Virus record (IMG/VR): IMGVR_UViG_3300049718_000044
Coordinates: 1 to 47,092 of that record
Source of the DNA: a virus
DNA: 47,092 bases
Strand: one strand, 5' to 3'
The notes under the pieces are model-generated. The model was not told where the DNA came from and ran no database searches. It saw nothing but the letters and a program-made list of their open reading frames with translations. Below are positions 907-36,236 of the stretch, in pieces. The translations under genes were made by a program, and so were the position numbers. Within the stretch, counting starts at the first letter, position 1. Each line of letters starts with the position of its first letter.

Positions 907-3900
907 TAGGCGGACCCTCCTGCAAACTGCCAAAACTTCAAACTGCCTGAATCTGTCATGAGTGACAGTTGTATGATGTCGTCAGGTTCGGGGAACATGT
1001 CTTCGTACACGCCGCCGATCTTCTTTGTCTTGATCTGCGCGCCGCTTGTCGGAGTGCCTGCTGCTGTGACAGTGCAAGCATCTACAAAAGAAAATGTCAA
1101 CTGTGTGCCGCCTATTGACGTGCTGGTGTCAACGCCCACCAGCGGCCCGGCCCCATGCACGCGCAGATGCTTGTGGCTGCCGAACCCTGAGATCACACCG
1201 TCCACAATCGTGACGTCAAACCAGCCGTCGTCGGGCGGCGCTTGCAGGGCCAGGGTTGAACCAAGCGGCATGCGCAGAAGGATGGCGTTGACCCCATCGT
1301 AGGTAATCGTCAGGGTGACGGGCGTGGTGGAATCCGTGTGCAGCGTGGGAATCAGGACAAACGTATTGTCCGATGCAAGGGATACGTGCGGCGACTGATA
1401 CACGAGCGGTCCGAGAGCTTGCGGGCCGGGCACAAGCGGCGCGGATTGAATCTCAAACAACACGCCGGGGTTGCTGCCAGAGCAGTACACCTTGAACCCG
1501 ATGGTGGTGGTGGCCCCAACGTCCCCGCCATCGACTGTCACCCACGTGGGCGTGATGGTCCATGGTGCTGCCGGGATGCTTGTTACTCCCGGCGTGTTGG
1601 GCAGCATGGGAAACGCTTGCGGGAAATCGCTGCCCGTGCTTGTGGCTGTTCTTGTGGCTGACATGACGAGGCCTGAGTCGCCAGACACGCGCACGCCCGC
1701 GAACTGGTCAGCACGCAGCAGCTTTGGAGTGCTAACAAGCGGTGAAGTGGTGCCAAGGTCTACCCAGGCCATGGGAGCCACCCCCAGCACGATGTTGTCC
1801 GTTTGCATCTGCAAGAAGTGCGCGCCGTAGGTCGTGCCGTTCAATACCTGGACCACCATATCCTTGGCGAAGGCATCGGACGTGCTGAAGTCGGGGTCGC
1901 GGTGCATGCGCGCGTGTGTGGCGACGAAAGAGTACCCACCGCCTACGGCCTCTTCCCAGTGGCCTCCGATGTCATCGACCACATAGGGGCCGTCGTACTC
2001 CTTGCCGGTGAGCGACCCCGGCAAGGACAACGCAAGGAAAGATCGGCCCACTGCCCAGGCATCCGCGCCAAACGCGCCGGTTCCCGTTCCGCCCTGAATG
2101 CCGGTGAAGGGGTTCATGCCATCGAACATGTCGGCGGTGAGCGGCCCTGCGATTGTACGCTCCATCACGCCAGGGGAGATCTGCGCGAATATGCTGAACA
2201 CGACACCGGTACCTGCCCAGGCGGACGCGCTGAACGCCGCCACCACCGCGCCTCGGTCGTTCGCATCGAGCACCTGTGCCGTCCTGTACTCCTCAAACGC
2301 CAGCGGCGTGGTGGGCGCGACGGGGCTTGGCAACGGAAGGTTTGGCACGGTGAGAGCCTGCGACGGGTAGAAGAAGACATCCTCGCAACATTCGACCTTG
2401 ATCGAGTTGTCGATGCCGTCGCCCAGGTGGATACCCGTCACGCGCATGACCATGGAGTTAATGCCGAGGTCAGGCCAGTTGAGCACGAAGGGGGATCCGA
2501 TGTTGAAGCCCGCCGCCTGCCTTGCCGCAATGACCGTGCAGGAAAGCAGCGGCGTGGACAACATGCGCAGGTCGCGCAGCGCGAGCTTGGCGGCGTTGGC
2601 CTGCGACGTGATGCCGGGGTAGTCGATCTGGGCAGAGACGATCCCGCCCTGCGCTTGAATCAAGCCATCCTCGTAAATGGTGACGCTGCCCTGGTCGCCC
2701 GAGCGCGTGGAGGCCGAGTAGGTAACGGTCACGCAGTTGACCAGCTCGCCCGGCTGCTTGCGGGATGCGCTCTCAATACTCACCACGTTGGACTCGTCGA
2801 GCACAGTCAAATCGCCGTATGTGTAGTCGTTGCGAATGAGCTTGAGTACGAACTGCCCCGAGGTGCGGTCTACGTACAGCACGCCCGTGATGTGGCGAAG
2901 GATGTCAGCCAAGAAGTCTTCGATGGTCGTTTGCGAGGACCACACGTGCGACATCCCCAAGCGTTCGTTGTAGAGCGTGTCGGCGGCTGCGGTAAAAGAG
3001 GCGTCGTTGATGTTGGCCTCTGCGTACCCCATGCCCCAGTACGGATCGGTCAGGGCCTCGCGGATGATGTGCGCCGGGTTCATGTCCACCACGCCAGCGG
3101 GCGCAGCGGCCTCCTGCCCCACCTGGATGCCAGCGTAGATGAACTGCCCGGTTCCGACATGGTTCCCGCTCGCGTCCGAGCCATTGATCACTCGATACGC
3201 AATGACGTTGATGCCGCCAGTGTTGATCAATTCCTTCGGAATGACTGCGGTCGAGTTGTACTGCGCCATCTCGCCCTGCCCCGTTGGCGTTAGCGTGATG
3301 GGCGTGCCGTTGAACCACAGTTCTCCCGTATCGTCGTGCCACATGCGCACGTTCAGGGGGAAGACTGGCAGCGCGCCGATGTTCCAGCGCATCCATAGCT
3401 TGGTTCCCACGACCGAGCGGCCATTCGGCCACGTTCCCAGAACCGTCGAGCCATCCGTGGGAAGCTGCGTTCCGCAAGGTGGGATGTAGTAATTAGGCCA
3501 ATTGAAGTATTTGCCCACGTCCACCTTGACAATGGCGTTGCCGATGCCACCAGGCCCCTGTGCCCAGTCAGAATCGTCATAGCTCACGGCGCTGAAGTCG
3601 GTCCAGTCGTTCGTAACCTTGTACTTCCACACGTCGGACAAGCTGCGCTCGCCGTTGGAAATCTCGGCCTTAGCGTCGTACCACTGCACGCTTGCCCCGC
3701 CTAGGCGCGTGTGGATGCGCTTGACGATGAACGTCCAGGGCTTGAGGTACGGACTCGTGCCGATGCGCCCACCCTGGAACACCACCGACGCCACGCCCTT
3801 GTACTTAGGCCCTAGGGTGTAGCCGAGCTTTTCAGCCATGTAGTCGTCCTCGCCCGCGTCTGTCCCCGCCACACTGACGGCGCCCTTGTTCAATTCCCAC

Positions 3901-4319
3901 CCACCGAGAACGGAGTCAGGCCCGACGTAGATGTTATTGCCAGTGCCGCCGCCGCCTAGCTGCTGGGGCACACCCGCCGATCCGTCATCTGCTACAAGCG
4001 TACCCCCGTCGTTGATGTAAGGCTGGCCGGCAACGAAAATCTGCATCAGCTCATCGATCAGCCCATGGCAGATCCCCATCTGAAGACCTGCATAGTAGTA
4101 TTGATCGTTGTTCACCGGAATGATCTGAAGGTCTCCGTACCAGCACGTATTGATCTGTGTTAACTCGCGCGTGCCGAACACCGCGGGAATTGCGATCCCC
4201 TCTGTGGCCGTTGGCCCCTGCACCTGGCCCGGCGCCTGGGTGGGTGGCTTCATCTTGCTCTGCATGTAGAGCGAGTAGATGAACGCCGCGATAGTGACAC
4301 CAGCAACGAACCAAGCCAT
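906..4319 (-). CDS. Tail tip/hub host-specificity protein (J-like)
   Basis: 1,137 residues, the largest protein in the genome. It begins with a hydrophobic segment (about residues 3-19, WFVAGVTIAAFIYSLYM), then a conserved-looking N-terminal part with GIAIPAVFGT. The middle, about residues 415-660, has the tail-hub features of the lambda J / GTA host-specificity group: HIIREALTDPYWGMG, a segment on decoding a local query (ILRHITGVLYVD) and a beta-rich domain ending near ECCEDVFFYP. The C-terminal 450 residues are beta-rich and variable, the usual receptor-binding end. It lies last in the tail series, after the DUF2163-type gene, which is the canonical hub slot. It starts in a TAATG overlap with the preceding gene and ends TAA-TGA, a tandem stop that also overlaps the fibre start. 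Confidence 0.85.
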   Translation of the reverse strand: MAWFVAGVTIAAFIYSLYMQSKMKPPTQAPGQVQGPTATEGIAIPAVFGTRELTQINTCWYGDLQIIPVNNDQYYYAGLQMGICHGLIDELMQIFVAGQPYINDGGTLVADDGSAGVPQQLGGGGTGNNIYVGPDSVLGGWELNKGAVSVAGTDAGEDDYMAEKLGYTLGPKYKGVASVVFQGGRIGTSPYLKPWTFIVKRIHTRLGGASVQWYDAKAEISNGERSLSDVWKYKVTNDWTDFSAVSYDDSDWAQGPGGIGNAIVKVDVGKYFNWPNYYIPPCGTQLPTDGSTVLGTWPNGRSVVGTKLWMRWNIGALPVFPLNVRMWHDDTGELWFNGTPITLTPTGQGEMAQYNSTAVIPKELINTGGINVIAYRVINGSDASGNHVGTGQFIYAGIQVGQEAAAPAGVVDMNPAHIIREALTDPYWGMGYAEANINDASFTAAADTLYNERLGMSHVWSSQTTIEDFLADILRHITGVLYVDRTSGQFVLKLIRNDYTYGDLTVLDESNVVSIESASRKQPGELVNCVTVTYSASTRSGDQGSVTIYEDGLIQAQGGIVSAQIDYPGITSQANAAKLALRDLRMLSTPLLSCTVIAARQAAGFNIGSPFVLNWPDLGINSMVMRVTGIHLGDGIDNSIKVECCEDVFFYPSQALTVPNLPLPSPVAPTTPLAFEEYRTAQVLDANDRGAVVAAFSASAWAGTGVVFSIFAQISPGVMERTIAGPLTADMFDGMNPFTGIQGGTGTGAFGADAWAVGRSFLALSLPGSLTGKEYDGPYVVDDIGGHWEEAVGGGYSFVATHARMHRDPDFSTSDAFAKDMVVQVLNGTTYGAHFLQMQTDNIVLGVAPMAWVDLGTTSPLVSTPKLLRADQFAGVRVSGDSGLVMSATRTATSTGSDFPQAFPMLPNTPGVTSIPAAPWTITPTWVTVDGGDVGATTTIGFKVYCSGSNPGVLFEIQSAPLVPGPQALGPLVYQSPHVSLASDNTFVLIPTLHTDSTTPVTLTITYDGVNAILLRMPLGSTLALQAPPDDGWFDVTIVDGVISGFGSHKHLRVHGAGPLVGVDTSTSIGGTQLTFSFVDACTVTAAGTPTSGAQIKTKKIGGVYEDMFPEPDDIIQLSLMTDSGSLKFWQFAGGSA

Positions 4320-5128
4320 TAGAAGATCCTCGTTGTGGTGTTGAATGGGTTAATGCGCGGGATGCCTGGCCACCCGCCGAAGTTGCCAAAGTTGTTGTAT
4401 GTCGCGCACCCCGAGGTGGAGTGGTCACAGCCGGGGTACAGCGTGACGGCGAACCCGCTCGGGTGCGCAACCATGTTCTGCGCAAGGTCGCTCGAATGTC
4501 GCATGAGCGTGATCGTGGTGCTGTTCTGCTCAACGATGAAAAAGATTGATCCGTTGGGCGACTTCAGCGTACCGCCTTTGAAGTCCCCCGTCAGCGATGC
4601 AAACCCTACGATTGCACCACTCAACGATGTGACCGTATTCGCCACTGCGTAGGTTGCCGGGTTCACGTTGCAGCCTGGCCCAAACAGGCGGTGCCTGCAC
4701 ATGCGCGAATAGGTGGCCTGCAACCCCATCCGGCGAAGCGATGTGAAGACGGGCTCGCATTGCAGAGAAACAGTGGCCACGGACACGGAAGAAAAAGCTA
4801 CGCGCCCCATCCAAATGGTCAGCAGATCTTCATCGTCAAAGTTCGTTCGGTAGATCGTCACCGTCGTCACGGCGTCTGGCGCGTAGCTCAAGAACAGCGC
4901 CGCCACCGGGTTGGTGATTGGCAGCTTCAGATCGATCTGATCCTTGGGGACATCCCCTGTATGCGCGATAGGCCCGCAGATGATCGCCTCTGGGCCCCAC
5001 GTTCGCCCGCCCTTGGAAAGCGTCTCTGGCGCGGCGGCGTAGCGCCACACCTGGGAGCCAGAAGCGAACTCGAACAGCAGTACGGGGTTGCTCTCCTGCT
5101 GTGATATGTCCTTCGCCGCGTAGCTCAT
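4319..5128 (-). CDS. Distal tail protein, DUF2163/BR0599 family
   Basis: 269 residues. The C-terminal half carries the spaced cysteines typical of the BR0599-type phage tail family: RMCRHRLFGPGCNVN (about residues 143-157), later YPGCDHSTSGC (about 232-242), then a NFGGWPGIP motif near the end. This family sits between the GTA gp12-like distal protein and the hub and is part of the baseplate ring that organises the tail tip. It is sandwiched exactly there. Its ATG overlaps the stop of the 388-residue gene by 4 bases (ATGA), and its TAA overlaps the hub start. The four cysteines could bind a metal or, by analogy with related tail hubs, an Fe-S cluster; that is inference. Confidence 0.85.
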   Translation of the reverse strand: MSYAAKDISQQESNPVLLFEFASGSQVWRYAAAPETLSKGGRTWGPEAIICGPIAHTGDVPKDQIDLKLPITNPVAALFLSYAPDAVTTVTIYRTNFDDEDLLTIWMGRVAFSSVSVATVSLQCEPVFTSLRRMGLQATYSRMCRHRLFGPGCNVNPATYAVANTVTSLSGAIVGFASLTGDFKGGTLKSPNGSIFFIVEQNSTTITLMRHSSDLAQNMVAHPSGFAVTLYPGCDHSTSGCATYNNFGNFGGWPGIPRINPFNTTTRIF

Positions 5129-6291
5129 GGGTAGATCGGAACCTCTTTAGTTGCGGCTACGATGGTCGCCTGACGGCCGGGGAGGTGTTGGATCTCGATG
5201 CGGTCAGAGTCCAGGCGCGAGAGGGTTAACTTGCTCACCTTAAGCGCAGCCATGGGCCAGGTGGATCCGGACCACGAACCCGACCAGTAAAGCAACTCGT
5301 TTGCCCCTGACGTCGCCACGCTTACAATTCTGAGCGGAACAAAGACTCCCGTGGCTTCGTTCATCACGGCCAGATCCATGGGCAGTGGGTACTCGGTGGC
5401 GAAGCCCATAGCCGCGACTTGCAGGCTGTTGTCACCCGGCGCGATGTCCTTTGTCAGCACCACGTCGCCGTTCCAACTCGAAGTCCAGAACCTCTTCCAC
5501 CTCCCGCGCAGGGTGTGCAGCCACACGCGCAGTTCCCACAGGTCCGCCGCATTCTGCGCTGTCCACGCCAGCACCGCCGACTGGTTAGGGGTCGCATAGA
5601 TCGGGTACTTGTAGATCGGGCCGGTCCTTGAATCCAGCTCCTCAACCTCGCGGACGTTGTGCTCGGAAATGCTGTTGATGACCTCGATGGGGTCTGTGAC
5701 GAGAGGGTACCCAAGGTAGCTTGGATACAGGTCAGAGCCCATGCTGAGAAGGTCTTCGGTATCCACGCACAGGAACGCGGCGCTGGCTTGCGAGTACGTG
5801 TGCGGGCCACGGTCGCCCGTGAAGTCCTGCGAGAAGGTGCCCACACGCAGGGGCGCGACCCATGGGAGCGTATAGCCTGCGACGGTCGCGCTGATCGATA
5901 TGGTGCCCAAGCCCCCATTGACGACCGATGTCACCGAGACAACCTCGTAGCTGGCGTTGCTACCCCACACGAGGGCGAAGCCGCCTTGGCGGTACGCGGG
6001 CGCGTGGGTCGTAGTCACGGGCAGCGTGACGGTAGCTGCGCCAATGGTTGGAATCTGCGTAGCATTGGGCCAGTCGGGCACGTACACCGGATCGCCGCCC
6101 ACCACGCGGGCAAGCTCGCGCGCAGCCGCGTAGTCGATGTCTTCGAGCTGGTACTTGAAAGCGTAGGACGTGCGCGGCATCTGGCACAAGCACTGCGGGT
6201 ATTCCGCACGCTTGCACTTGATGATGCTGGTCAGCCATTCGAGGCTTTCCACCACGTTCATTTGAGGCATGAATGGCCACGCTACGGTCAT
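5125..6291 (-). CDS. Minor/distal tail protein
   Basis: 388 residues, no signal peptide or membrane segment, beta-rich with many aromatic residues. It has an internal region with two cysteines in CKRAEYPQCLCQ (about residues 26-37). I do not recognise a named domain with certainty. Its place between the tape measure and the DUF2163 protein corresponds to the distal tail protein slot (DIT/GTA gp12-like) that caps the tube and starts the baseplate. Start ATG overlaps the tape-measure stop (ATGA). Strongly supported as a gene by continuous frame and tight coupling; the exact role comes from position only. Confidence 0.75.
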   Translation of the reverse strand: MTVAWPFMPQMNVVESLEWLTSIIKCKRAEYPQCLCQMPRTSYAFKYQLEDIDYAAARELARVVGGDPVYVPDWPNATQIPTIGAATVTLPVTTTHAPAYRQGGFALVWGSNASYEVVSVTSVVNGGLGTISISATVAGYTLPWVAPLRVGTFSQDFTGDRGPHTYSQASAAFLCVDTEDLLSMGSDLYPSYLGYPLVTDPIEVINSISEHNVREVEELDSRTGPIYKYPIYATPNQSAVLAWTAQNAADLWELRVWLHTLRGRWKRFWTSSWNGDVVLTKDIAPGDNSLQVAAMGFATEYPLPMDLAVMNEATGVFVPLRIVSVATSGANELLYWSGSWSGSTWPMAALKVSKLTLSRLDSDRIEIQHLPGRQATIVAATKEVPIYP

Positions 6292-19194: not shown

Positions 19195-20997
19195 TCATTT
19201 TCCTTTCGTCTTCGGTTTCTGTTCGCCCATCTTGGGGTTTTGAATCACGGGCGCAGGCTCCGGACCGCCTGCGTCTGCTTCCACTGCCTTTGCAATCACC
19301 GCCCCGTGCTTCGCCGTGAACTCTGTGATGGTCAGGTTACCGTCATCGCCCGGCCACGGGGGGAAGCCCATCTGTGCAAGGGCTTGGTTGACGGTGACGA
19401 TTGACCCTTGCATGGCCGGGGTAAGCGTGAGCTGCGTAGCCTCGGCCACGGGGGCGACGGGTGTTGCTTCGGACGACCCGACGTTGCTCGGCTGCGCGGC
19501 CTCTGGCGGTTGCAGCTTCAACGCCGCAAGCTCGGCCAGGCGTGCCGTCTGCTCATGCCCCGCCGCCTCGACCTCAGATACCATACTCACGTCCGCGTCT
19601 TCGAGCATTGGCATGAAGTCCTCTTCCTTGAGCTGCCTGGTGACGGCAGCAGCGGGGAGCGCCATGCACTCGACGTATGCCTTGCGCGTGGTGGCCTGCA
19701 CTAGCTCGCGGTCGGCCTTATCTTTCTTGCTCTCAACACGTAGCGGGTTGAATGTGAACTTGAACCCAGGAGGCTGGGATCCGAACAGGTGCGCGCACAG
19801 CACCTTGTACCACTTGGCGATGGGGCCTCGACATACAACAGCCTGCTCGCTCGCGATGCTCTTGTCATAATCCTGCTCCTCGCCCGCGCCCGACGAGTTG
19901 AGCCCCGGTGACGACTCACCCAGCAGCTTGGTGCGCGGTGTGCGCGAGGCCGCGGCGATGGCAGACTCGAACTTGTCCACCACACCCGCGAGCCCGGTGA
20001 AGTTGTTCCCCTTCTTCTCGTACTTGTCCTTGGCGTCCATGATGAGCATGCGGTTCATGCTCTTAATCGTCTGCGCGAGGCCGAAGCGTTTCGCGATCTT
20101 CTCGTCGGCCTTGGGGCTTGCCATCGTGGCCGCAAGACCATCGACCATCATCACGTCGATGTTGGCTTCGAAGAACATCGTTGCGAGCCCCGCCATCGTG
20201 GCCGCGTAGTCCTTCACGGATTCAAGCGCGACTTGCAACACGCTGTCGTGCCACATGCCATTGGCCAGCCAGTGGATGTAATCCAACCGCTCGCCATCGA
20301 AGAAGATCATGCGCGACCGATGGATCTGCGTTGGCGTCTCGACCCCGCCCACAGTGTAGAACCTAGGCTTGCGGAAGTCCGGCCCGTAGTCGAGGAAGCT
20401 CTGTTGCAGGTCTTGAGGCCCGAGCAACCAGCGGTCGAACATCTCAACCCCACGCAGGCACCCGCGCGGCAGCTTGTCCAGGTCTACGGGCTCGGCCCAG
20501 TTGCTATCAAGCGCGCCGTTGAAAAGCAGGATGCCCGCCGCCCCGCCGTACTGGCGCGACCACTTGATGCCGTCGAAAAACTTGTTGCGGAAATCGAAGA
20601 ACGCATCCGCATCGTCAAGGGTCTGCTGCCTGCTGGTGTCTTCCTTCTTGCCGTCCCACTCGCACGCAACCCACGCGCGGCACATATCCTCGGCGCGCAC
20701 CCCGACGATGTTCTTGGCCAGCCAGTTGGTGCGGCACATGCTCGACGCTTGCTCGCGGTCGATCTGAACCGTATAACCCCAGTTGCTGTAGCTGCGCTTG
20801 TCTCGCTCGGTGCCCAGCCCTGCGACCGCGTTCTGCAAACCGTCGGACGAGAACGCGCCCATGAGCGCATCCTGGCCAATGTAGAACGAGCGCAACGTCT
20901 GCTCATGTGGGGCGAGCATGTTGCGAATGCCTTCAAGCTCCGAACGCACGAGGGCTAGCTGCTTGTCTCGCTTGCCTTTTCCTAGGAATTCAAACAT
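19195..20997 (-). CDS. Portal protein (DUF1073 family)
   Basis: 600 residues. Recognisable DUF1073-type elements are: MCRTNWLAKNIVGVRAEDMCR (near residue 85), the ILLFNGALDSNWAEPVDL segment, TQIHRSRMIFFDGERL, and SRTPRTKLLGESSPGLNSSG (about residues 345-365), followed by Asp/Tyr. The C-terminal 100 residues are Pro/Ala-rich and end in a basic tail. It forms the dodecameric ring at the capsid vertex through which DNA is pumped by the terminase encoded immediately before it. Ribosome site GGGGG precedes ATG at 20995-20997; 8-base gap from the terminase gene. Confidence 0.92.
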   Translation of the reverse strand: MFEFLGKGKRDKQLALVRSELEGIRNMLAPHEQTLRSFYIGQDALMGAFSSDGLQNAVAGLGTERDKRSYSNWGYTVQIDREQASSMCRTNWLAKNIVGVRAEDMCRAWVACEWDGKKEDTSRQQTLDDADAFFDFRNKFFDGIKWSRQYGGAAGILLFNGALDSNWAEPVDLDKLPRGCLRGVEMFDRWLLGPQDLQQSFLDYGPDFRKPRFYTVGGVETPTQIHRSRMIFFDGERLDYIHWLANGMWHDSVLQVALESVKDYAATMAGLATMFFEANIDVMMVDGLAATMASPKADEKIAKRFGLAQTIKSMNRMLIMDAKDKYEKKGNNFTGLAGVVDKFESAIAAASRTPRTKLLGESSPGLNSSGAGEEQDYDKSIASEQAVVCRGPIAKWYKVLCAHLFGSQPPGFKFTFNPLRVESKKDKADRELVQATTRKAYVECMALPAAAVTRQLKEEDFMPMLEDADVSMVSEVEAAGHEQTARLAELAALKLQPPEAAQPSNVGSSEATPVAPVAEATQLTLTPAMQGSIVTVNQALAQMGFPPWPGDDGNLTITEFTAKHGAVIAKAVEADAGGPEPAPVIQNPKMGEQKPKTKGK

Positions 20998-21005
20998 GCA
21001 GCCCC

Positions 21006-22334
21006 CTATACGTCGAACATGGTCGGCGTGCGAGTGATCAACAATTCGTGCGCGTACCGCACGCTATCCCATCCGTGCTCATAGCCGGGCTTGAGCTTGC
21101 GGGACACGACCCCGGTCAGCTTGTCCGTCTGGTACGACCACAGCCGCGCCTCTTCGTGAACGTGTGCGCACGATGTATGGATAAAGATGCGCTCAAACCC
21201 GCGCAGGTACGTCACCCCGTCCTCGACACAGCCGGGCCACTTCTCGCACGATTCGATCATGAAGTTTTCATTCTTCATGTGCGAGATGGTTTCGGGGCGC
21301 GCATTGTCGGCCTTGATGATGTACTTGCGCACGTCGGTCACGGTATCGAACAGCGCGGGCAGGTCGATGGTTTCGCAGCCGAGCGCGAAGGCCTCCTCTG
21401 CAACGTAGAGATTACGGCGCAGCGGAAGGTATGCCTCGTCCCCGCTCGACGTGGTGAACGTCTTGCCCATGTCTTCCGGGTTGAGCACTTCCACAAACGA
21501 CTTGGTGAGTGCCGTTGGGTCTTGGGAGAATCCCCAGTCCGCGCCAAAGTACGGCCCGCCCGTGAACGTAGCTCGCAGGTCGAAGTCTTTCAGGCACCAC
21601 TTGCCGTTGAGCACCTGGGCGTCGTTCTTGAACCAAGTCTTGCCGCCCCAGATGTGCTCATAGCGTTCGGGGTCTTGCTCGCGCATGTACTCCGCTTGCT
21701 GGCGCAGCACGCGCGGCAACCACGGGTTGTCATCCCAGCCCACTTGGAGCACGACCGCGCCGGGCAGCCGCTTCGAGGGGATCGCGAACATCTGGTAGAT
21801 GGGATCGGTTTCCTGGATCGGGTTGAACGAAATCCAGATCTCACTACCAGGCTTTCGGATCGTGGGGTCGAGGGTGTCCCAGCTCGCTTGACTGGTCGTC
21901 TCACCTTCTTCGATCCAGCAGATGTCCACGGCCTCGGTGGACTTGAGCGAAGCGACGTTATGATGGAGCCCCGCGAAGATGAACTGACTGCCCGTCCACA
22001 CGTTCACGATCTCGGTGTCGCGAACGATGAACTCCTCTTCGAGCCCCATGCGCGCGATCTGACTTTTCAGCAGGAAGTGAACCGACTCACGGATCGACTT
22101 CATGTACTCGCGGGCGCAGAGGATGCGCAGCTTTTTCTTGCACGCGAGCATGAGCAAGGCGCGGGCGATGGTCCACGACTTGACCGAGCCGCGACCCCCA
22201 TGCACCACGCGGTAGCGCGGGCCGGGCACGAAGAACTTGACCATCTTCTTTGGAATCTCGAAGTCCAAGGACTCGCCACGCGCGGGGCCCAGGTCTTCGT
22301 TCGGCAGGCGCGGCGTGATTTGAACAGCTTCCAT
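21006..22334 (-). CDS. Terminase large subunit (Terminase_3-like)
   Basis: 442 residues from ATG at 22332-22334, which overlaps the previous stop as TGATG. Two GTG codons just upstream (22337, 22340) are alternatives. ATPase: Walker A HGGRGSVKSWTIARALL (about residues 46-62) and Walker B VDICWIEEGE (about 135-144), followed by a coupling motif. Nuclease: FGADWGFSQDPTAL (about 250) with the first catalytic Asp, and later EEAFALGCETIDLP and NARPETISHMK. It translocates DNA into the prohead and cuts it. Length is normal for the family. Headful cutting would agree with a circularly permuted genome. Confidence 0.94.
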   Translation of the reverse strand: MEAVQITPRLPNEDLGPARGESLDFEIPKKMVKFFVPGPRYRVVHGGRGSVKSWTIARALLMLACKKKLRILCAREYMKSIRESVHFLLKSQIARMGLEEEFIVRDTEIVNVWTGSQFIFAGLHHNVASLKSTEAVDICWIEEGETTSQASWDTLDPTIRKPGSEIWISFNPIQETDPIYQMFAIPSKRLPGAVVLQVGWDDNPWLPRVLRQQAEYMREQDPERYEHIWGGKTWFKNDAQVLNGKWCLKDFDLRATFTGGPYFGADWGFSQDPTALTKSFVEVLNPEDMGKTFTTSSGDEAYLPLRRNLYVAEEAFALGCETIDLPALFDTVTDVRKYIIKADNARPETISHMKNENFMIESCEKWPGCVEDGVTYLRGFERIFIHTSCAHVHEEARLWSYQTDKLTGVVSRKLKPGYEHGWDSVRYAHELLITRTPTMFDV

Positions 22335-22588
22335 CACCACACCACGTTTTCGATGGGCTTAAGCCACGTCAGCACCTGTTGGATATTCGCGCGGCGGCGC
22401 CACTGCACATCATGCACCACACACCAAAGCTCGAAAACGTCGAGCCCTCCGCGCCCCGCTAGGTGCTCAAGAGTCTGCCCATGGTTCATCAACGCTTGAC
22501 CCTCATGGTCTGCAAGCAACCGCCAAGGCACCGAGCGCGGAGAGTGAACACCGCGAGCCTGGATGATGGGGAATTGGCGCTCAAGCAT
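22334..22588 (-). CDS. Small protein between terminase subunits (hypothetical)
   Basis: 84 residues, Trp/His-rich (FELWCVVHDVQWRRRANIQQ), no known motif recognised. It overlaps the small terminase by 8 bases and the large subunit by 1 (TGATG), so it is translationally coupled in the packaging operon. The frame is open across its entire length with no competing gene on either strand. It could be a packaging accessory; function unknown. Confidence 0.7.
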   Translation of the reverse strand: MLERQFPIIQARGVHSPRSVPWRLLADHEGQALMNHGQTLEHLAGRGGLDVFELWCVVHDVQWRRRANIQQVLTWLKPIENVVW

Positions 22589-23306
22589 CGAAAATCGTCC
22601 TGCCCTCTTCCGCGTCCTGCTCTGCCTTCTCTTCGCTGAAATTCAGCGCGCCCGGCGCTTCGGGGTCTTGGGTCGCCGTGGTCTTGTCCACGATGGTGAC
22701 TTTGATCTCTTGGAGCTTGCGCCCTCCGAGAGGCTTGCCCCCGCTCGTGACATCCGTCTCGCTCTTGCCCGCCCAGCGGTCTTTCATGCCCTGGCGGTGG
22801 GTGAGAATCCACTTGGCCGTTTCAACGCCATCGGGGTTGGTCGGGTTGAGCGCAGCACGGTGGATCTTGTTCACGAGGTCAACTTCCACGCGCGCAGAGA
22901 ACACGTCAAAGATAGTTTGGAACAGGCGATAGGGCGACCCTACCGGCTCCTGCGGATCTTGCCCGCGCTTCTGCCAGTACAGCACACCGGGGAGGTTGAG
23001 CCCTACTGCCGCCGCCGCTTGCGCCAGGCCGTTACCAGCACGAACCAGTACAAGCAAACGCCACACACGGTCGAACGTAAAGCCATGCTTGCTTCTCCCC
23101 TCGTCGCCAGGCAGTGCCCACGTCCTACCCTTGGGCGCGCGGTACATGCGGAACGCCAAGCGCAGCTCATGTTCTGCCGTGGGCAAATCCCCGAAATCGA
23201 TGAACGGCTCGCCGTCCGAGCCCATCTTGAGCTTCGGGACCGTCACACGTTTGCGCTTCGCAGGCACAAAACCAGAGTGCCACTTGTCAAGGCTAAAAGC
23301 CACCAA
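22581..23306 (-). CDS. Terminase small subunit
   Basis: 241 residues. The TTG at 23304-23306 or the adjacent GTG at 23301-23303 is the start; GTG with an upstream TTTAGG is equally likely. It has a helix-turn-helix-like segment AGNGLAQAAAAVGLNLPGVLYWQKRG (described here in two parts: AGNGLAQAAAAVGL, then PGVLYWQKRG) around residues 90-115. Then W-I-L-T-H and KDRWAGKSETDVTSGG, which matches small terminases ahead of a Terminase_3. It recognises packaging sites and loads the large subunit. First gene of the leftward late operon, divergent from the small basic protein gene. Confidence 0.85.
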   Translation of the reverse strand: MVAFSLDKWHSGFVPAKRKRVTVPKLKMGSDGEPFIDFGDLPTAEHELRLAFRMYRAPKGRTWALPGDEGRSKHGFTFDRVWRLLVLVRAGNGLAQAAAAVGLNLPGVLYWQKRGQDPQEPVGSPYRLFQTIFDVFSARVEVDLVNKIHRAALNPTNPDGVETAKWILTHRQGMKDRWAGKSETDVTSGGKPLGGRKLQEIKVTIVDKTTATQDPEAPGALNFSEEKAEQDAEEGRTIFDA

Positions 23307-23388: not shown

Positions 23389-23583
23389 ATGGCCAAAGTC
23401 AAATCGTCAGGCAAGAAGGTAGGCAAGGGCGACAAAGCCGCCAAGAAGGGCTTTCGGGGCAACATGTCCAAGACCGTCAACACCAAGCAGGGCGGCTGGA
23501 AGAAGCTGCCATTCGGGAACAAGGGCGGCGGCCCCATGCTCAAGGTGGGCGGCAAGAACGTCATGGGTGGGACCGACCACTAG
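23389..23583 (+). CDS. Small basic Lys/Gly-rich protein
   Basis: 64 residues from ATG at 23389 with a strong AAGGAG ribosome site 7 bases upstream. I prefer it to an upstream TTG/ATG start at 23329 because of that site. Very rich in Lys and Gly (KVKSSGKKVGKGDKAAKKG), net strongly positive, no hydrophobic core. Such proteins may bind nucleic acids or act as capsid-internal proteins. It heads the rightward unit with the PP-loop and ParB genes and is followed 34 bases later by a terminator-like hairpin. It may therefore be made in excess over them. Confidence 0.8.
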   Translation: MAKVKSSGKKVGKGDKAAKKGFRGNMSKTVNTKQGGWKKLPFGNKGGGPMLKVGGKNVMGGTDH

Positions 23584-23586
23584 CAC

Positions 23587-24255
23587 ATGCCAAGCAAGCT
23601 CACGCTTGCCCATGAAAGAGCCGCCCGCGTAGCTAGTCTAACGGGCGGCTCTCTTCTTTTGGGGCTGTCAGGCAAGGACTCATTCGTCACGCTCGACATC
23701 GCGGCCGAGCACTTCAAGCGCATCGTGTGCTTTCACATGTACATGGTGCGCGGCATGCGCTGCCTAGAAGCCCCGCTCGAAGCTGTGTGCGCCAGGTACA
23801 AGGCAGAGTTGATCTATGTGCCTCACTGGGATCTGGCCAGGTTCATGTCCAACGAAATCCTGCGCCCCGCGCACGTGCGTGCTGTGGGATTGCGCAAGCT
23901 CAAGAAGGCCGACAGCGAGCGCCTTGCACGCAAGCGCAGCGGCATCGAGTGGATATCCTACGGGGAGCGCCTATCCGACAGCTACCCGCGCCGCCTGTTC
24001 TGGCGACACCTCGACGGCGTCTATCAGGACGGCAAGCGTTGCACCCTGATCCCCGATTGGCTCGATGCTGACGTGAACGGGTTCATGGTGGCGCGCAAGC
24101 TGCCTTCACCCTGCACGTTCGGCAGCAAGACAGCCAGCTCAGGGTTCAACATCGGGCCTGACGTGCTCGCATGGCTCAAGCAGAAACACCCTCAAGACTT
24201 CCAAGCCGTTCTGAAAACATTCCCCGCCGCTCAAGTTCAATTGGAGAAGACATGA
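23587..24255 (+). CDS. PP-loop ATPase, PAPS reductase-like (IbrA/DndC-type superfamily)
   Basis: 222 residues. N-terminal strand and PP-loop: GSLLLGLSGKDSFVTLDIA with SGKDS at about residues 28-32, a one-glycine-shorter form of the SGGKDS ATP-pyrophosphatase loop. A later stretch RRLFWRHLDGVYQDGKRC and CTFGSKTASSGFN fits the superfamily C-terminus. These enzymes adenylate a substrate and release PPi (sulfate reduction, base thiolation, DndC phosphorothioation). It overlaps the next, ParB-fold, gene by ATGA. PAPS-reductase-like and ParB-like genes are a known pair (IbrA-IbrB), here smaller than the bacterial IbrA. Target unknown; phage DNA or RNA modification is inference. Confidence 0.8.
   Translation: MPSKLTLAHERAARVASLTGGSLLLGLSGKDSFVTLDIAAEHFKRIVCFHMYMVRGMRCLEAPLEAVCARYKAELIYVPHWDLARFMSNEILRPAHVRAVGLRKLKKADSERLARKRSGIEWISYGERLSDSYPRRLFWRHLDGVYQDGKRCTLIPDWLDADVNGFMVARKLPSPCTFGSKTASSGFNIGPDVLAWLKQKHPQDFQAVLKTFPAAQVQLEKT
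23617..23660 (+). terminator. Rho-independent terminator-like hairpin inside the PP-loop gene start
   Basis: Perfect 11-bp GC-rich stem AGAGCCGCCCG (23617-23627) / CGGGCGGCTCT (23642-23652), 14-base loop, followed by CTTCTTTT. It lies 33 bases after the basic-protein stop but inside codons 11-25 of the PP-loop gene. It could terminate most transcripts after the basic protein and attenuate the two downstream genes. Confidence 0.75.
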
Positions 24256-24965
24256 AGCCCGAACTCACCAAGCACCAGAAGTTCCAAAGCCTTCGCATCA
24301 AGCGCAGCGAGATCAAGAATCTGCCTCTGAATCCGCGCACCATCAGTGCGAACGCGAAGAAGCGCCTCAAGAAGTTCATCGAGCGCGTGGGCCTGCTCGG
24401 TCCGGTGAACTACAACACCACCACGGGGCACGTGTACGGCGGCAACCAGCGCCTTGCCGTGCTCGATGCCCTGGAAGGTGGCCAAGACTACCTGCTCGAC
24501 GTTGCAGCAGCCAAGCTCACGCCCAAGCAGGAGGCCCGCGCCGTTACGGGGCTCAACTCCCAAGAGCTGCAAGGTGACTGGGATCTGCCTCTGCTCGCCA
24601 AGCTCCTGGGCGAAGACAAGCAGCTTGACCCCGAGGACTATGGATTCTCTCAAGTATCACTTGATGTTTTGCTGGGCGAGGAGGGCAAAGGCATCTTTGC
24701 CATGCAGAGCCCCGAAACTGAATCGTCGCTCGACGACCTCAACGAGATGAACGAGCGCGACCCCGACGAAGTTGCAGCAGAGAAGAACGCAGCCGTCGAG
24801 CGCAGGCACAAGATGAAAGAGAAAGCGCAAGTCGATCAAAACGCGAGCAGTGCTGACCGCGTGGCCCACGTCGGATTCAAGACGACCAAAGAGCTAGAAG
24901 CGTGGATGGTCAAGCACGGGGAGAGCCCGCACGCCCGCTACATCAGCGCGAAGGATGTGCCCTAA
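24252..24965 (+). CDS. ParB/sulfiredoxin-fold protein (IbrB-like)
   Basis: 237 residues, ATG overlapping the PP-loop gene stop by 4 bases. The ParB N-domain is visible: LPLNPRTISANAKKRLKKFI, VGLLGPVNYN, then VYGGNQRLAVLDAL with GGNQR at residues 63-67, the ParB box that binds CTP or a phosphate. The C-terminal half is acidic and helical (LNEMNERDPDEVAAEKNAAV) with no helix-turn-helix seen, so it is not a canonical partition ParB. Paired with the PP-loop enzyme, it may deliver it to DNA or act as nuclease/NTPase partner. A strong hairpin follows the TAA. Confidence 0.82.
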   Translation: MKPELTKHQKFQSLRIKRSEIKNLPLNPRTISANAKKRLKKFIERVGLLGPVNYNTTTGHVYGGNQRLAVLDALEGGQDYLLDVAAAKLTPKQEARAVTGLNSQELQGDWDLPLLAKLLGEDKQLDPEDYGFSQVSLDVLLGEEGKGIFAMQSPETESSLDDLNEMNERDPDEVAAEKNAAVERRHKMKEKAQVDQNASSADRVAHVGFKTTKELEAWMVKHGESPHARYISAKDVP

Positions 24966-25979: not shown

Positions 25980-26114
25980 ATGAACAACCAGCCCCTGCAC
26001 GAGAAGCCAGATCGGCACACGCTCCCTGCACTGCAAGGGGCAAGGCTGGCGCTTATACCGAGCACGGTAGAGACGTGTGTCGATTTGGCTTCTCGTGGTG
26101 AGGACTGGGCATGA
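25980..26114 (+). CDS. Small protein upstream of primase-helicase
   Basis: 44 residues starting MNNQPLHEKPDRHTLPALQG and ending EDWA. Its TGA overlaps the primase-helicase ATG (ATGA), the coupling seen at nearly every junction in this genome. That makes it more than a chance frame. Function unknown; it may serve to couple translation into the large primase gene, which lacks its own strong ribosome site. Confidence 0.5.
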   Translation: MNNQPLHEKPDRHTLPALQGARLALIPSTVETCVDLASRGEDWA

Positions 26115-28174
26115 AGAAATCAGAAGCAACCGCCGCCATGCTCGCCGACCTGGCCCGTTCCGGTCTTGAGCCCAAGCACATGCAAGCTGCACTCGTCGGG
26201 GCGGCAGAGCTGGCGACGATGTTCCCGAAGGCCCGCGCCGAGTGGGCGTACAAGCTGCCCTACCCGCCGCGCATGCGTAAGGGCCTGCCGGCCATCTGCC
26301 GGTTCAAGGTGCTGCACTACGCGCCCGGTGCGTTCGGTGAGGTGGCCACCGATGCGCCCAAGTACCTGCAACCCCCCGCCACCGCGCCCGGTGCCTACTT
26401 CTACGGCGGCTATGACTGGTCCGTGGTCTGCTCTACACCAGGTGCGGAGATCATCCTGGTCGAAGGTGAGAAGAAAGCGGCATGTGGGTGCCTGAATGGC
26501 TTCAACGTCATCGGCCTGGGCGGGGTGTGGTCGTGGAAGTCCAAGACGCTGGGCCTGTCGTTCCTGCCTGAGCTGGCCGCTATCGACTGGCACGGCCGTC
26601 ACGTCTACCTGTGCTTTGACAGCGACACAGTGACCAACGCGGACGTGGCGCGGGCACTGGTCGAGCTGACCAAGAAGCTAACGTCGATGGGGGCGCTGGT
26701 CCACGAGGCTACCATCCCGGAGGTCACGCCAGGGGAGAAGGCAGGCCTTGACGACTTCATTCAGGCCCGCGGCCCGGAGGCGTTCCGCAAGCTCCTCGAC
26801 GATGCGAGCACGCGGGTAGGGGAGGCGGTCGAGAAGCTGTGGTCGCTCAACACCACGCACGCGATCATCAAGATCCCAACGATGGTTCTGGAAGAGGACG
26901 TGCCCGACGCTAACGGCAAGTTAGAGAACCGCTTCCACAAGTGGCACGACTGGTCTTCTGTGGTCATGGCCGACAGGTCTGTGATGGACTTGCAACCAGG
27001 CGGGCAGGGGCGCCCACCCAAGGCGGTGCAAGTGCCGCTGTCCAAGCTCTGGAACGAATGGCCCGCGCGCCGCTGCTTCTCCCAAGTGACCTACATGCCC
27101 GGCCAGCCGCGCATTCTCAATCATGGCAGCGTCTACAACGGATGGCGTGCGCTAGGTGTCGAGCCCAAAAAGGGGAGCGTGAAGCTGTGGAAAGAGCTGC
27201 TGGCGTTCCTGTTCGATGGCAGCCCACCCGAGCACGTGAAGTGGTTTGAACAGTGGCTTGGCTACCCGCTAAAGCACCTGGGCACCAAGATGGCGAGCGC
27301 CGTCGGCATGTGGGGCGCGCAGGGCGTGGGCAAGAGCCTGATACCGCTTGTCACGATGGGGCCTATCTACGGGCGCAACTTCACGTCGGTCAAACAGCCC
27401 GAGCTTGAAAGCGAGTTCAACGACTGGGCCACAGATAGGCAGCTCGTCTTGATTGACGAGGTCGAGGCAGAGAACAGCAAGCACAGGGGCGCGCTGCTCA
27501 AGCACCTGATTACAAGCCCTCGCATGTTCATCAACCGCAAGGGCCTCCCACGGTACGAGGTGCCCGACTACATCAACTACTATCTGGCCAGCAACAGCCC
27601 CCGCGCATTCGACCTGGACGAAGACGACCGCCGCTTCTTCGTCCACAAGGTGCTGGCCGACCGCTCACAGTTCCCCCGCGACCTGGCACGCGCGTACTGC
27701 GACGAGTGGCTAGGCCGCGTGTCCCGCTCTGATGTCTACACGGGCAAGGGGCATGCGGCGCTGCTGCACTACTTCTTGCACGAGCTGGACTACACCGGGT
27801 TCCAGCACGACCAACCCCCCATGACCCGCGCCAAGCGAGACATGGTCGAGGTCGGACGCCACCCCGCCGTGGACTGGCTGCTCACGTTCACCGAGCGCGA
27901 CACGTGGGCCAAGTACATGCGCCGCGAGGTGTGGACACCGTCCGAGCTATGCACCCTCTACCGGGGCAGCGGGAACCGCAGCGCCGAGAACACCAGCGTC
28001 AACGGGTTCGGTGCGTACCTGTCCACCGTCGGCTGCCCGCGCTGGCACGGCACCGTCAAGGGGGAGTCGGTGCGGTTCGTGGCCGTGACCAACTTCGAGA
28101 AGTGGAAGAAGGCCACGGCCGACGAGTGGGTCAAGGAGTACCAGAGGGTCATGTTAAGCGGGGTGAAGTTTTGA
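26111..28174 (+). CDS. Primase-helicase (TOPRIM-like plus SF3/D5-like helicase)
   Basis: 687 residues. The N-terminal half has a TOPRIM-like fold: IILVEGEKKAACG (EGEKK at 118-122) and VYLCFDSDTVTN (168-175), DUF3854-like; the DxD is intact. The C-terminal half is an SF3-type ATPase. Walker A is GAQGVGKS (about 402-409), Walker B is RQLVLIDEVEAENS (about 442-455), and the sensor/motif C region is YYLASNSPRAFDLDEDDRRFF (about 490-510, given here as YYLASNSPR then DEDDRRFF). Such fused proteins start replication by making primers and unwinding DNA. It lies in the early operon just after the putative origin. No zinc finger seen at the N-terminus. Confidence 0.9.
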   Translation: MKKSEATAAMLADLARSGLEPKHMQAALVGAAELATMFPKARAEWAYKLPYPPRMRKGLPAICRFKVLHYAPGAFGEVATDAPKYLQPPATAPGAYFYGGYDWSVVCSTPGAEIILVEGEKKAACGCLNGFNVIGLGGVWSWKSKTLGLSFLPELAAIDWHGRHVYLCFDSDTVTNADVARALVELTKKLTSMGALVHEATIPEVTPGEKAGLDDFIQARGPEAFRKLLDDASTRVGEAVEKLWSLNTTHAIIKIPTMVLEEDVPDANGKLENRFHKWHDWSSVVMADRSVMDLQPGGQGRPPKAVQVPLSKLWNEWPARRCFSQVTYMPGQPRILNHGSVYNGWRALGVEPKKGSVKLWKELLAFLFDGSPPEHVKWFEQWLGYPLKHLGTKMASAVGMWGAQGVGKSLIPLVTMGPIYGRNFTSVKQPELESEFNDWATDRQLVLIDEVEAENSKHRGALLKHLITSPRMFINRKGLPRYEVPDYINYYLASNSPRAFDLDEDDRRFFVHKVLADRSQFPRDLARAYCDEWLGRVSRSDVYTGKGHAALLHYFLHELDYTGFQHDQPPMTRAKRDMVEVGRHPAVDWLLTFTERDTWAKYMRREVWTPSELCTLYRGSGNRSAENTSVNGFGAYLSTVGCPRWHGTVKGESVRFVAVTNFEKWKKATADEWVKEYQRVMLSGVKF

Positions 28175-32923: not shown

Positions 32924-33544
32924 ATGATTATCGAAATCGAAGGTTGCGATGGGGTAGGCAAAACCACCGTTGCGAAGCTCCTGGCCGAGAAGATCGGCGC
33001 GCAGTATCTCAAGTTTCCCGACCGCACCACGCCGACGGGGAAGGTTATCGACACGATGCTTAGAGGCGGTGGTTGGCTAGGTGAAAAGACCTACCTGGAC
33101 ATGGAGCCCACGACCTACCAGGCCCTGAACGTCGTTAACCGCCTGGAACACTTCGGGACGCTGGACAGGTGCCACCAGAACCAGGCGCTGCACCTTGTCT
33201 GCGACCGCTACATCCAAAGCGCGTTCGTCTACGGGGGGCAGGACAATGTCAACCCGGAGTGGCTGGCGGATCTCATGCTGTGCTTTCCGCCGCCCGACCT
33301 TCACGTCCTCTTGTGGGTAGACCCTGAAACCCTGGACGCCGAACGCCTGGCAGGCCGCGACCGCGAGGTGTACGAGTCCAGAGGGGTCAAAGGCCTGGTG
33401 TCGCAGTCCATTCGCTTCATGCAGATTTGGGCACAGCACGAGTCTGACCCTCGGTGGGTCAAGTACAACTCGAATGAGCGCAGCGCGAACACCATCGCCG
33501 AGATGGTTATCAGTGACCTGGACTACATCAAAGGGGGGATGTGA
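32924..33544 (+). CDS. tmk: Thymidylate (dTMP) kinase
   Basis: 206 residues. P-loop GCDGVGKTT (residues 7-15), the acceptor-binding segment ending KFPDRTTPTG (equivalent to the F-P-x-R-E motif), and CDRYIQSAFVYGG matching the DR(Y/W)..S..AYQ motif. Length is standard for bacterial dTMP kinases. Converts dTMP to dTDP with ATP, feeding dTTP for replication by the phage polymerase encoded downstream. GGAGGG ribosome site before ATG. The next gene overlaps its TGA (TGATG). Phage dTMP kinases occur with or without modified thymidine pathways; no hydroxymethyl-uridine enzyme was seen here. Confidence 0.88.
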   Translation: MIIEIEGCDGVGKTTVAKLLAEKIGAQYLKFPDRTTPTGKVIDTMLRGGGWLGEKTYLDMEPTTYQALNVVNRLEHFGTLDRCHQNQALHLVCDRYIQSAFVYGGQDNVNPEWLADLMLCFPPPDLHVLLWVDPETLDAERLAGRDREVYESRGVKGLVSQSIRFMQIWAQHESDPRWVKYNSNERSANTIAEMVISDLDYIKGGM

Positions 33545-35428: not shown

Positions 35429-35499
35429 TTGGGTGTAGCTCAATTGGTAGAGCGCCAGATTTAATCTGGTCGTTGCGGGTTCAAGTCCCGCCACTTGAC
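35429..35499 (+). tRNA. tRNA-like gene, apparent anticodon UUA (suppressor type or degenerate)
   Basis: Cloverleaf by hand: acceptor TTGGGTG/CACTTGA (7 bp, three G-U pairs), TA at 8-9, D-arm GCTC-AATTGGTA-GAGC, anticodon arm GCCAG-ATTTAAT-CTGGT, variable CGTT, T-arm GCGGG-TTCAAGT-CCCGC, discriminator C. With the 7-base loop, U33 and A37 are in place and the anticodon reads TTA (35461-35463), which would decode UAA. Base 26 appears missing. CCA is not encoded (CGA follows). The short variable loop excludes class II Leu/Ser identity. The T- and D-arms are textbook, so a tRNA origin is sure; function and charging are not. Confidence 0.8.
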
Positions 35500-35512
35500 C
35501 GAAGGTGAAACG

Positions 35513-35731
35513 ATGAACCAAAAGAAGATCACAGAGGTACTTGGCGACTGGCCCACGTTGCTGGGGTTCATGCGCACGTGCAGCGAGGACGAGGCGGCGG
35601 CGTTGCTCAAGGCCGAGAAGGAAGGGGCGTGCCGCCGCACCATGCTTCTGCGCATCCACCAACGCTACAACGTCATGCGCGGGCGGCGAGAGCGGGAAGA
35701 ACTGGGCAAGCTGGGAATGCGGTCGAGGTAG
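35513..35731 (+). CDS. Small hypothetical protein after the tRNA
   Basis: 72 residues from ATG at 35513 with AAGGTG ribosome site; a TTG at 35495 would place the start in the tRNA and is rejected. Helical, charged (NQKKITEVLGDWPTLLGFM; EDEAAALLKAEKEGACRR; basic end RGRREREELGKLG). No motif recognised. Confidence 0.6.
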   Translation: MNQKKITEVLGDWPTLLGFMRTCSEDEAAALLKAEKEGACRRTMLLRIHQRYNVMRGRREREELGKLGMRSR

Positions 35732-35786
35732 GCCATGCTTGCATGCTTATCCGGTTCACGCACACCACTCAAACGATAGGAGAACA

Positions 35787-36236
35787 ATGAAAATCTACGT
35801 AGCATCTTCTTGGCGAAATGCATACCAGCAGGCGGTCGTGAAGCTGCTCCGACACTTGGGGCATGATGTCTACGATTTCCGAAACCCTGCGTCTGGCAAT
35901 ACCGGCTTTGCTTGGTCTGCCATTGACCAGAACTGGCAAAACTGGACACCGGACGCCTACAGAAAAGCCTTGGAAAACCCTGTAGCTAAGAACGGTTACA
36001 GTCTCGACATTGGCGCTGTCCGCTGGTGCGACGCCGGGGTGCTTGTGTTGCCTTCCGGCCGGTCGGCATCGTGGGAGTTTGGGCACATCATGGGGCAAGG
36101 AAAGCCCGGCGTTGTCTACATGCCGGAGGCTTGCGAACCGGAATTGATGTACAGCGAGGCGCGCATTCTGGTGTCAGAGGATGAGCTGCGAGAACATTTC
36201 AACCCGTTTCGCGCCGAATGGGCGTCAACCGGATAG
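35787..36236 (+). CDS. Nucleoside 2-deoxyribosyltransferase-like protein
   Basis: 149 residues from ATG at 35787, ATAGGAGAAC ribosome site. The Rossmann-like start MKIYVASSWRNAYQQAVVKL, followed by LGHDVYDFRNP, an aromatic stretch GFAWSAIDQNWQNWTPDAY, then DAGVLVLPSGRSASWEFGHI (the LPSGRSA...E motif with the likely catalytic Glu), and GKPGVVYMP. These are family features of NDT-like enzymes that exchange or hydrolyse nucleobases in the free deoxynucleoside pool. It lies just upstream of the DNA polymerase. It may recycle host nucleosides or make a modified precursor. Confidence 0.83.
   Translation: MKIYVASSWRNAYQQAVVKLLRHLGHDVYDFRNPASGNTGFAWSAIDQNWQNWTPDAYRKALENPVAKNGYSLDIGAVRWCDAGVLVLPSGRSASWEFGHIMGQGKPGVVYMPEACEPELMYSEARILVSEDELREHFNPFRAEWASTG

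Follow-up and report, generated by a model that had tools for sequence, protein, structure and literature searches.

The window analyzed here, 47,092 bases long, spans a complete IMG/VR record and comes from a phage with 61% GC. It carries two coupled genes, one for a compact PP-loop protein with an ...LSGKDS... loop and one for a ParB-fold protein with the motif GGNQR, and directly upstream of them an open reading frame (ORF) for a small basic protein (table 1). The pair had been proposed in a first-pass annotation of this DNA, and both genes are indeed present and overlap as ATGA. The same annotation had placed the pair beside the packaging genes, which is correct as to adjacency, but the terminase and portal genes that adjoin it in the window lie on the opposite strand, in divergent orientation. 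Replication genes are found 3' of the pair on its own strand, and positions 26111–28174 (+) encode a primase/helicase-like protein with DUF3854 and DUF5906. PADLOC returned a weak methyltransferase/ParB match on the window and nothing more.

Table 1. Positions, strands, and basis of assignment of the PP-loop/ParB pair and neighboring genes in the window
Feature	Positions	Strand	Basis
Small basic Gly-rich protein, 64 aa	23389..23583	+	Position and composition, not tail sequence
Compact PP-loop ATP pyrophosphatase-fold protein, PAPS_reduct (PF01507) superfamily, 222 aa	23587..24255	+	Profiles, AlphaFold2, Foldseek
ParB/sulfiredoxin-fold protein with NPR and GGNQR motifs, 237 aa	24252..24965	+	PHROG ParB-like, profiles, fold
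Terminase small subunit (TerS), divergent neighbor	22581..23306	-	L001 homolog with module, 43% identity
Terminase large subunit (TerL), context	21006..22340	-	Terminase_3, E 2.6e-40
Portal gene	19195-20997	-	Opposite strand to the pair

The window PP-loop protein by itself matches the PF01507 model with an e value of 0.14, and in profile searches 60 of 61 aligned relatives match this model; profile, fold, and GKDS loop together place the protein in the PAPS_reduct superfamily. Its AlphaFold2 model has a mean pLDDT of 93.5, and the Foldseek matches of the protein, at TM-scores of about 0.5, are TtuA/NcsA at the top, CysH, CysD, and LarE, with PDB entry 5gha, TtuA with TtuB, among them. Conserved positions are the GKDS loop, G126, D131, R135, P202, D204, F212, and P213. 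No cysteine is conserved among the 61 members, the best column holding Cys in 43 of 61 and the others in about half or less. Because of this, the family has not kept the Cys chemistry seen in DndC, TtuA, and CysH, the catalytic C-terminal Cys that marks CysH-type sulfate reduction has no conserved column to occupy it, and sulfur chemistry of the DndC or CysH type is, judging from the alignment, unlikely in this enzyme; the earlier suggestion of DndC-like phosphorothioation is accordingly not upheld. Cap9 is among the matches of the PP-loop profile search (e value 6e-4). The QueC profile is matched by 2 of the 61 members, at e values of 0.034 or weaker, and the Zn-binding Cys cluster that together with a QueC match characterizes the QueC/Cap9/QatC group is absent. 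None of the 61 members matches the DUF3440 profile.

The ORF listing starts the partner gene at 24171 (264 aa), but the ATG at 24252 (237 aa) is the likely start because it overlaps the stop codon of the PP-loop gene as ATGA. The ParB_N profile is matched by 29 of 51 members of the partner family, and Foldseek matches the protein to ParB, Noc, KorB, and Srx, with an N-domain similar to that of CTP-binding ParB/Noc. With the GxxR motif kept as GGNQR, the partner is a member of the ParB/Srx superfamily. Homology placing the two proteins in unrelated folds had been named as grounds for rejecting the pair; profiles, models, and Foldseek all return the folds originally claimed. A direct search of viral contigs found no relatives of the window ParB protein.

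The 64-aa protein upstream of the PP-loop gene (MAKVKSS...LPFGNKGGGPMLKVGGKNVMGGTDH) is Gly-rich and has a net charge of +14. Its ORF is preceded by an AAGGAG Shine–Dalgarno sequence, and its GC content by codon position (0.51/0.44/0.87) resembles that of other window genes; given the Shine–Dalgarno sequence and the strong GC3, the ORF is very probably a gene. The protein ends in ...MGGTDH rather than in Gly; the tail expected of a small basic protein in the cassette has the form G-x-(S/N/A)-(G/N)-G. The same slot in the nearest relative of the window locus, L001, holds a 71-aa protein ending ARYSTGAGGGGG (C-terminus STGAGGGGG). We found no alignable sequence relative of the 64-aa protein, viral contigs included, and because its end is also not a Gly, it is placed in the cassette by position and composition only. 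Since neither this protein nor the window ParB protein has further relatives, the tail of the window clade can be traced as far as L001.

Loci were collected by tblastn in phages and by scans of IMG/VR and GTDB contigs, and clustering of the PP-loop proteins at 85% identity resulted in 65 nonredundant clusters. In 59 of the 63 testable clusters, a ParB gene comes after the PP-loop gene and is read in the same direction, so that the pair is conserved in other phages, a point on which the first-pass annotation had been ready to give up its proposal. Using a profile grown from the window TerL protein, we detected TerL on the strand of the pair, no more than 4.5 kb downstream, in at least 41 of 55 clusters; the terminase genes beside the module belong to PHROG groups 2/3717, 38, and 15, and some clusters beyond the 41 of 55 carry other terminase groups. 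The PP-loop/ParB pair is real, widely conserved, and linked to packaging. A search of openly accessible journal papers returned no description of the cassette or of the tail described below. In loci L010 and L054, one ParB gene is flanked by two PP-loop genes in the same phage.

Gene order is kept between the window and L001, with identities of 71% for the PP-loop protein, 63% for ParB (over a partial ParB), and 43% for TerS, and in both a PP-loop gene followed by a ParB gene stands beside the terminase. The divergent orientation of the terminase is shared by these two loci, unlike most relatives. BLAST gave no match between the window TerL and the L001 TerL, so TerS has remained with the module whereas TerL is different. 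Comparison of window positions 21006–23306 with L001 positions 3542–5754 places an abrupt mosaic junction at the TerS–TerL boundary.

Relatives of the module also carry a gene for an ASCH-domain protein, located within 1.8 kb upstream of the PP-loop gene in 41 of 58 clusters and directly upstream of it in L003 (4422–4889), L045 (5405–5794), and similar loci. The ASCH motif G-x-K-x-x-E-x-R is conserved at 96–99%. No ASCH gene was found in the window; neither this gene nor a glycine-ending tail is visible from the window alone.

The strongest new fact to emerge from the relatives is a family of glycine-tail proteins that accompanies the PP-loop/ParB pair, which bears out the original hint that the basic protein matters, small basic tail proteins recurring beside the PP-loop gene. 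Between zero and about six small basic ORFs, encoding 19–228 aa with a net charge of mostly +4 to +30, lie among the ASCH, PP-loop, ParB, and TerS genes. Their N-terminal parts differ, and their C-termini share the consensus R-x-[SYG]-[MLF]-G-L-S-[GN]-G-COOH. Tails in Bacteroidota phages include ...YMGLSNG, ...YMGNNNG, and ...RVSLGMSGG, those in Lactobacillales phages ...RASTGHSGG, ...KHGSTGSSGG, and ...GSFGSSGG, and inspection revealed further variants (MGLSTG, GMATG, GLSAG, ANGGSNG, and 19-aa peptides). Ends other than Gly exist in several peptides, for example ...KANGAI in Riemerella phage RAP44. The largest tail proteins seen are basic proteins of 226–228 aa in L099, L105, and L110, with tails ...GLGLVGG and ...ALGLTAG. 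The tail proteins fall into no family of Pfam or PHROG.

When one pattern was applied to all ORFs with a net charge of at least +3, the tail was matched by 75 of 682 sense ORFs near the pair versus 11 of 1,295 distant ORFs (Fisher 5e-25) and 2 of 598 antisense ORFs (5e-19); an earlier, stricter count gave 48 of 352 versus 0 of 375. These distant and antisense controls rule out the tail as a chance feature of ORFs. The single pattern of the main count, itself a strict one, finds at least one tail ORF in 36 of 63 loci, and some loci lack any tail ORF. In the reverse direction, two tail proteins led to 15 loci and the tail DNA pattern to four contigs, every one of which carries a PP-loop gene; several of these 19 loci are contigs already in our locus set.

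Substitutions in 19 independent homologous pairs of the small proteins fall at codon positions 3, 1, and 2 in 532, 224, and 152 cases, a bias which indicates that the frames of the tail proteins are under coding selection. Tail paralogs within one genome have BLAST similarity in only 23 of 71 pairs; their residues at positions -2 to -9 agree at 18–86%, compared with about 5% beyond -10, identity at positions -1 and -5 being partly imposed by the search pattern and that at -4, -6, -7, and -9 not. Identical tail residues are encoded by different codons in 60% of cases, the same as at control positions. Because synonymous codons differ as often as in the controls, the tail is a signal at the protein level, and a DNA-level repeat or packaging site is ruled out. 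The presence of this cassette with its glycine-tail proteins in many unrelated phages suggests that the tail is the target of a system not yet described.

Several known systems share parts of this arrangement. IbrA-IbrB (Escherichia coli YbdN-YbdM), whose pairing the first-pass annotation had invoked, likewise consists of a PP-loop gene followed by an overlapping gene for a ParB-fold protein, and both cores are homologous at the profile level. The similarity is distant (hhalign e values 6e-6 and 2e-6), however, and YbdN has 406 aa and DUF3440, whereas the window PP-loop protein has 222 aa and lacks it; the motif of IbrB is DGFHR, compared with (S/G)G(H/N)QR here. Membership in the IbrA/IbrB family, marked by a length of about 400 aa and DUF3440, is therefore rejected. 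In three phage IbrA/IbrB loci, none of the 83 ORFs has a tail, and ASCH, TerL, and other terminase genes are absent; the cassette is thus not general to all PP-loop/ParB pairs. The phosphorothioation proteins DndC and DndB also combine a PP-loop enzyme with a partner from the ParB superfamily (PMC10853773), but the Cys set for the 4Fe-4S cluster and the sulfur-relay Cys dyad of DndC are absent in the PP-loop enzyme here, and no DndA, DndD, or DndE was seen among the genes scanned. Cap9 of type IV CBASS and QatC of qatABCD likewise couple a PP-loop enzyme to a dedicated substrate with an unstructured, glycine-containing end (PMC13279940), and these QueC-like proteins take N-terminal Gly protein ends into the active site (PMC13279940, PMC11996544). 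They differ in the N-terminal position of the Gly, in the Zn-binding Cys cluster, and in serving bacterial defense, whereas the cassette is phage-borne with a C-terminal Gly and no conserved Cys.

Adenylation by PP-loop enzymes serves to activate a carboxylate, a carbonyl, or a sulfate. In TtuA, which is among the best structural neighbors of the PP-loop protein, the C-terminal Gly-Gly of TtuB enters the PP-loop active site. TtuA requires a Cys-bound Fe-S cluster and zinc fingers, however, and TtuB is a folded ubiquitin-like protein, whereas the tail peptides can be as short as 19 aa.

The reading that we prefer, while regarding it as possible rather than probable, is that the PP-loop enzyme acts on small basic peptides, whose C-terminal glycine it activates, and that the pair forms the enzymatic core of a packaging-linked cassette. 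The gene linkage, the folds, the coding selection, the protein-level tail, and the linkage to ASCH and packaging genes on which this proposal builds are observed. We infer the role of the tail: unrelated small proteins that share only a glycine tail and lie beside a PP-loop gene would most simply be substrates or carriers of the enzyme. Such substrates would be largely unstructured proteins of small size and basic charge that have a glycine-ending C-terminal tail in common, and the window substrate would be the 64-aa protein despite its noncanonical GGTDH end. Using ATP, the enzyme would transfer AMP to the carboxylate of the last glycine in the tail and release PPi. The ParB/Srx-fold partner may supply or position the acceptor, and since the ParB fold and the terminase linkage point that way, the putative acceptor would most simply be phage DNA or the packaging complex. 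The presumed purpose is that the basic peptides be modified or attached before or during packaging. A more specific version, which we consider unlikely, holds that ParB helps to join the activated peptides covalently either to proteins of the head or the packaging machinery or to phage DNA, where the bond could for example be an amide on an exocyclic amine of a base, and that ASCH reads or hydrolyzes the bond. If true, such conjugation would follow a ubiquitin-like or Pup-like logic in which many unrelated modifiers share one tail.

The same observations can be read without the tail as a substrate. The pair may modify nucleic acid directly, with the PP-loop enzyme activating phage DNA (or RNA) at a base or a phosphate, ParB binding DNA, ASCH reading or removing the mark, and the basic proteins acting as DNA-binding helpers. 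The first-pass annotation had likewise suggested a chemical mark on phage DNA or RNA, or else an anti-defense module, and either may apply. Many PP-loop enzymes modify nucleic acid, TtuA/NcsA are the top fold matches, and both the conserved ASCH motif and the packaging linkage agree with such a role; we nevertheless hold it to be slightly less likely than the preferred reading, as it leaves unexplained why otherwise unrelated small proteins have a common C-terminal tail, offers no conserved Cys for sulfur transfer, and has to contend with a window that lacks an ASCH gene. The tail itself might instead be a targeting signal by which the small basic proteins enter the head, to be injected from there, with the pair serving loading or its regulation. 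Phage T4 internal proteins are likewise small, basic, diverse, head-linked sets with a shared terminal signal, and the position of the tail proteins beside packaging genes would suit a similar function. The signals of T4 are N-terminal and cleaved, however, T4 has no PP-loop/ParB partner, and head loading does not call for an ATP pyrophosphatase, which leaves this explanation with a small chance.

The pair could also be an IbrA/IbrB-like regulator or a partition-type pair that controls late gene expression, with the small proteins as unrelated neighbors, and its distant homology to YbdN/YbdM, the similarity of the ParB N-domain fold to CTP-binding ParB/Noc, and the annotation of IbrA/IbrB as co-activators of prophage genes all lean in this direction. 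Because the enrichment of tails indicates that the neighboring genes are not random, and because cassette content and packaging linkage are unlike those of true phage IbrA/IbrB loci, we judge such regulation improbable. Least probable by far is a metabolic PAPS reductase, an auxiliary metabolic gene for sulfur assimilation, as the PF01507 family name implies and as such genes are often annotated in other phages (PMC10434257), given that the lack of a conserved Cys removes the catalytic Cys of CysH and that the gene is linked to ParB, tail-protein, and terminase genes and not to sulfur genes.

PAPS reductase genes in phages are mostly assigned to sulfur metabolism or go without an explanation; one compact PP-loop family is now tied to genes for ParB-fold proteins, ASCH proteins, and terminase, as well as to previously unnamed glycine-tail proteins. 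The substrate hypothesis is testable in the cultured phages Lactobacillus JNU_P7, which has three tail proteins, and LR1, Bacteroides BS-TP2, and Riemerella RAP44. Activation and conjugation of the tail, should they take place, would amount to a new kind of packaging-linked modification of protein or DNA.

The window also encodes a tRNA at 35429–35500 (+; Rfam 52.7 bits) with a TTA anticodon, which is UAA-reading and suppressor-like, and 11 of 36 main window genes end in TAA. Across TAG CAC (23581–23586), the 64-aa ORF and the PP-loop gene share a reading frame, so that read-through would fuse both. A read-through link to the suppressor tRNA was rejected, as in-frame neighbors in the window are no more common than by chance and the corresponding genes of L001 are not in frame. 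A thymidylate kinase-like gene (32924–33544, +) and a nucleoside deoxyribosyltransferase-like gene (35541–36236, +) could be part of a phage nucleotide-modification pathway.
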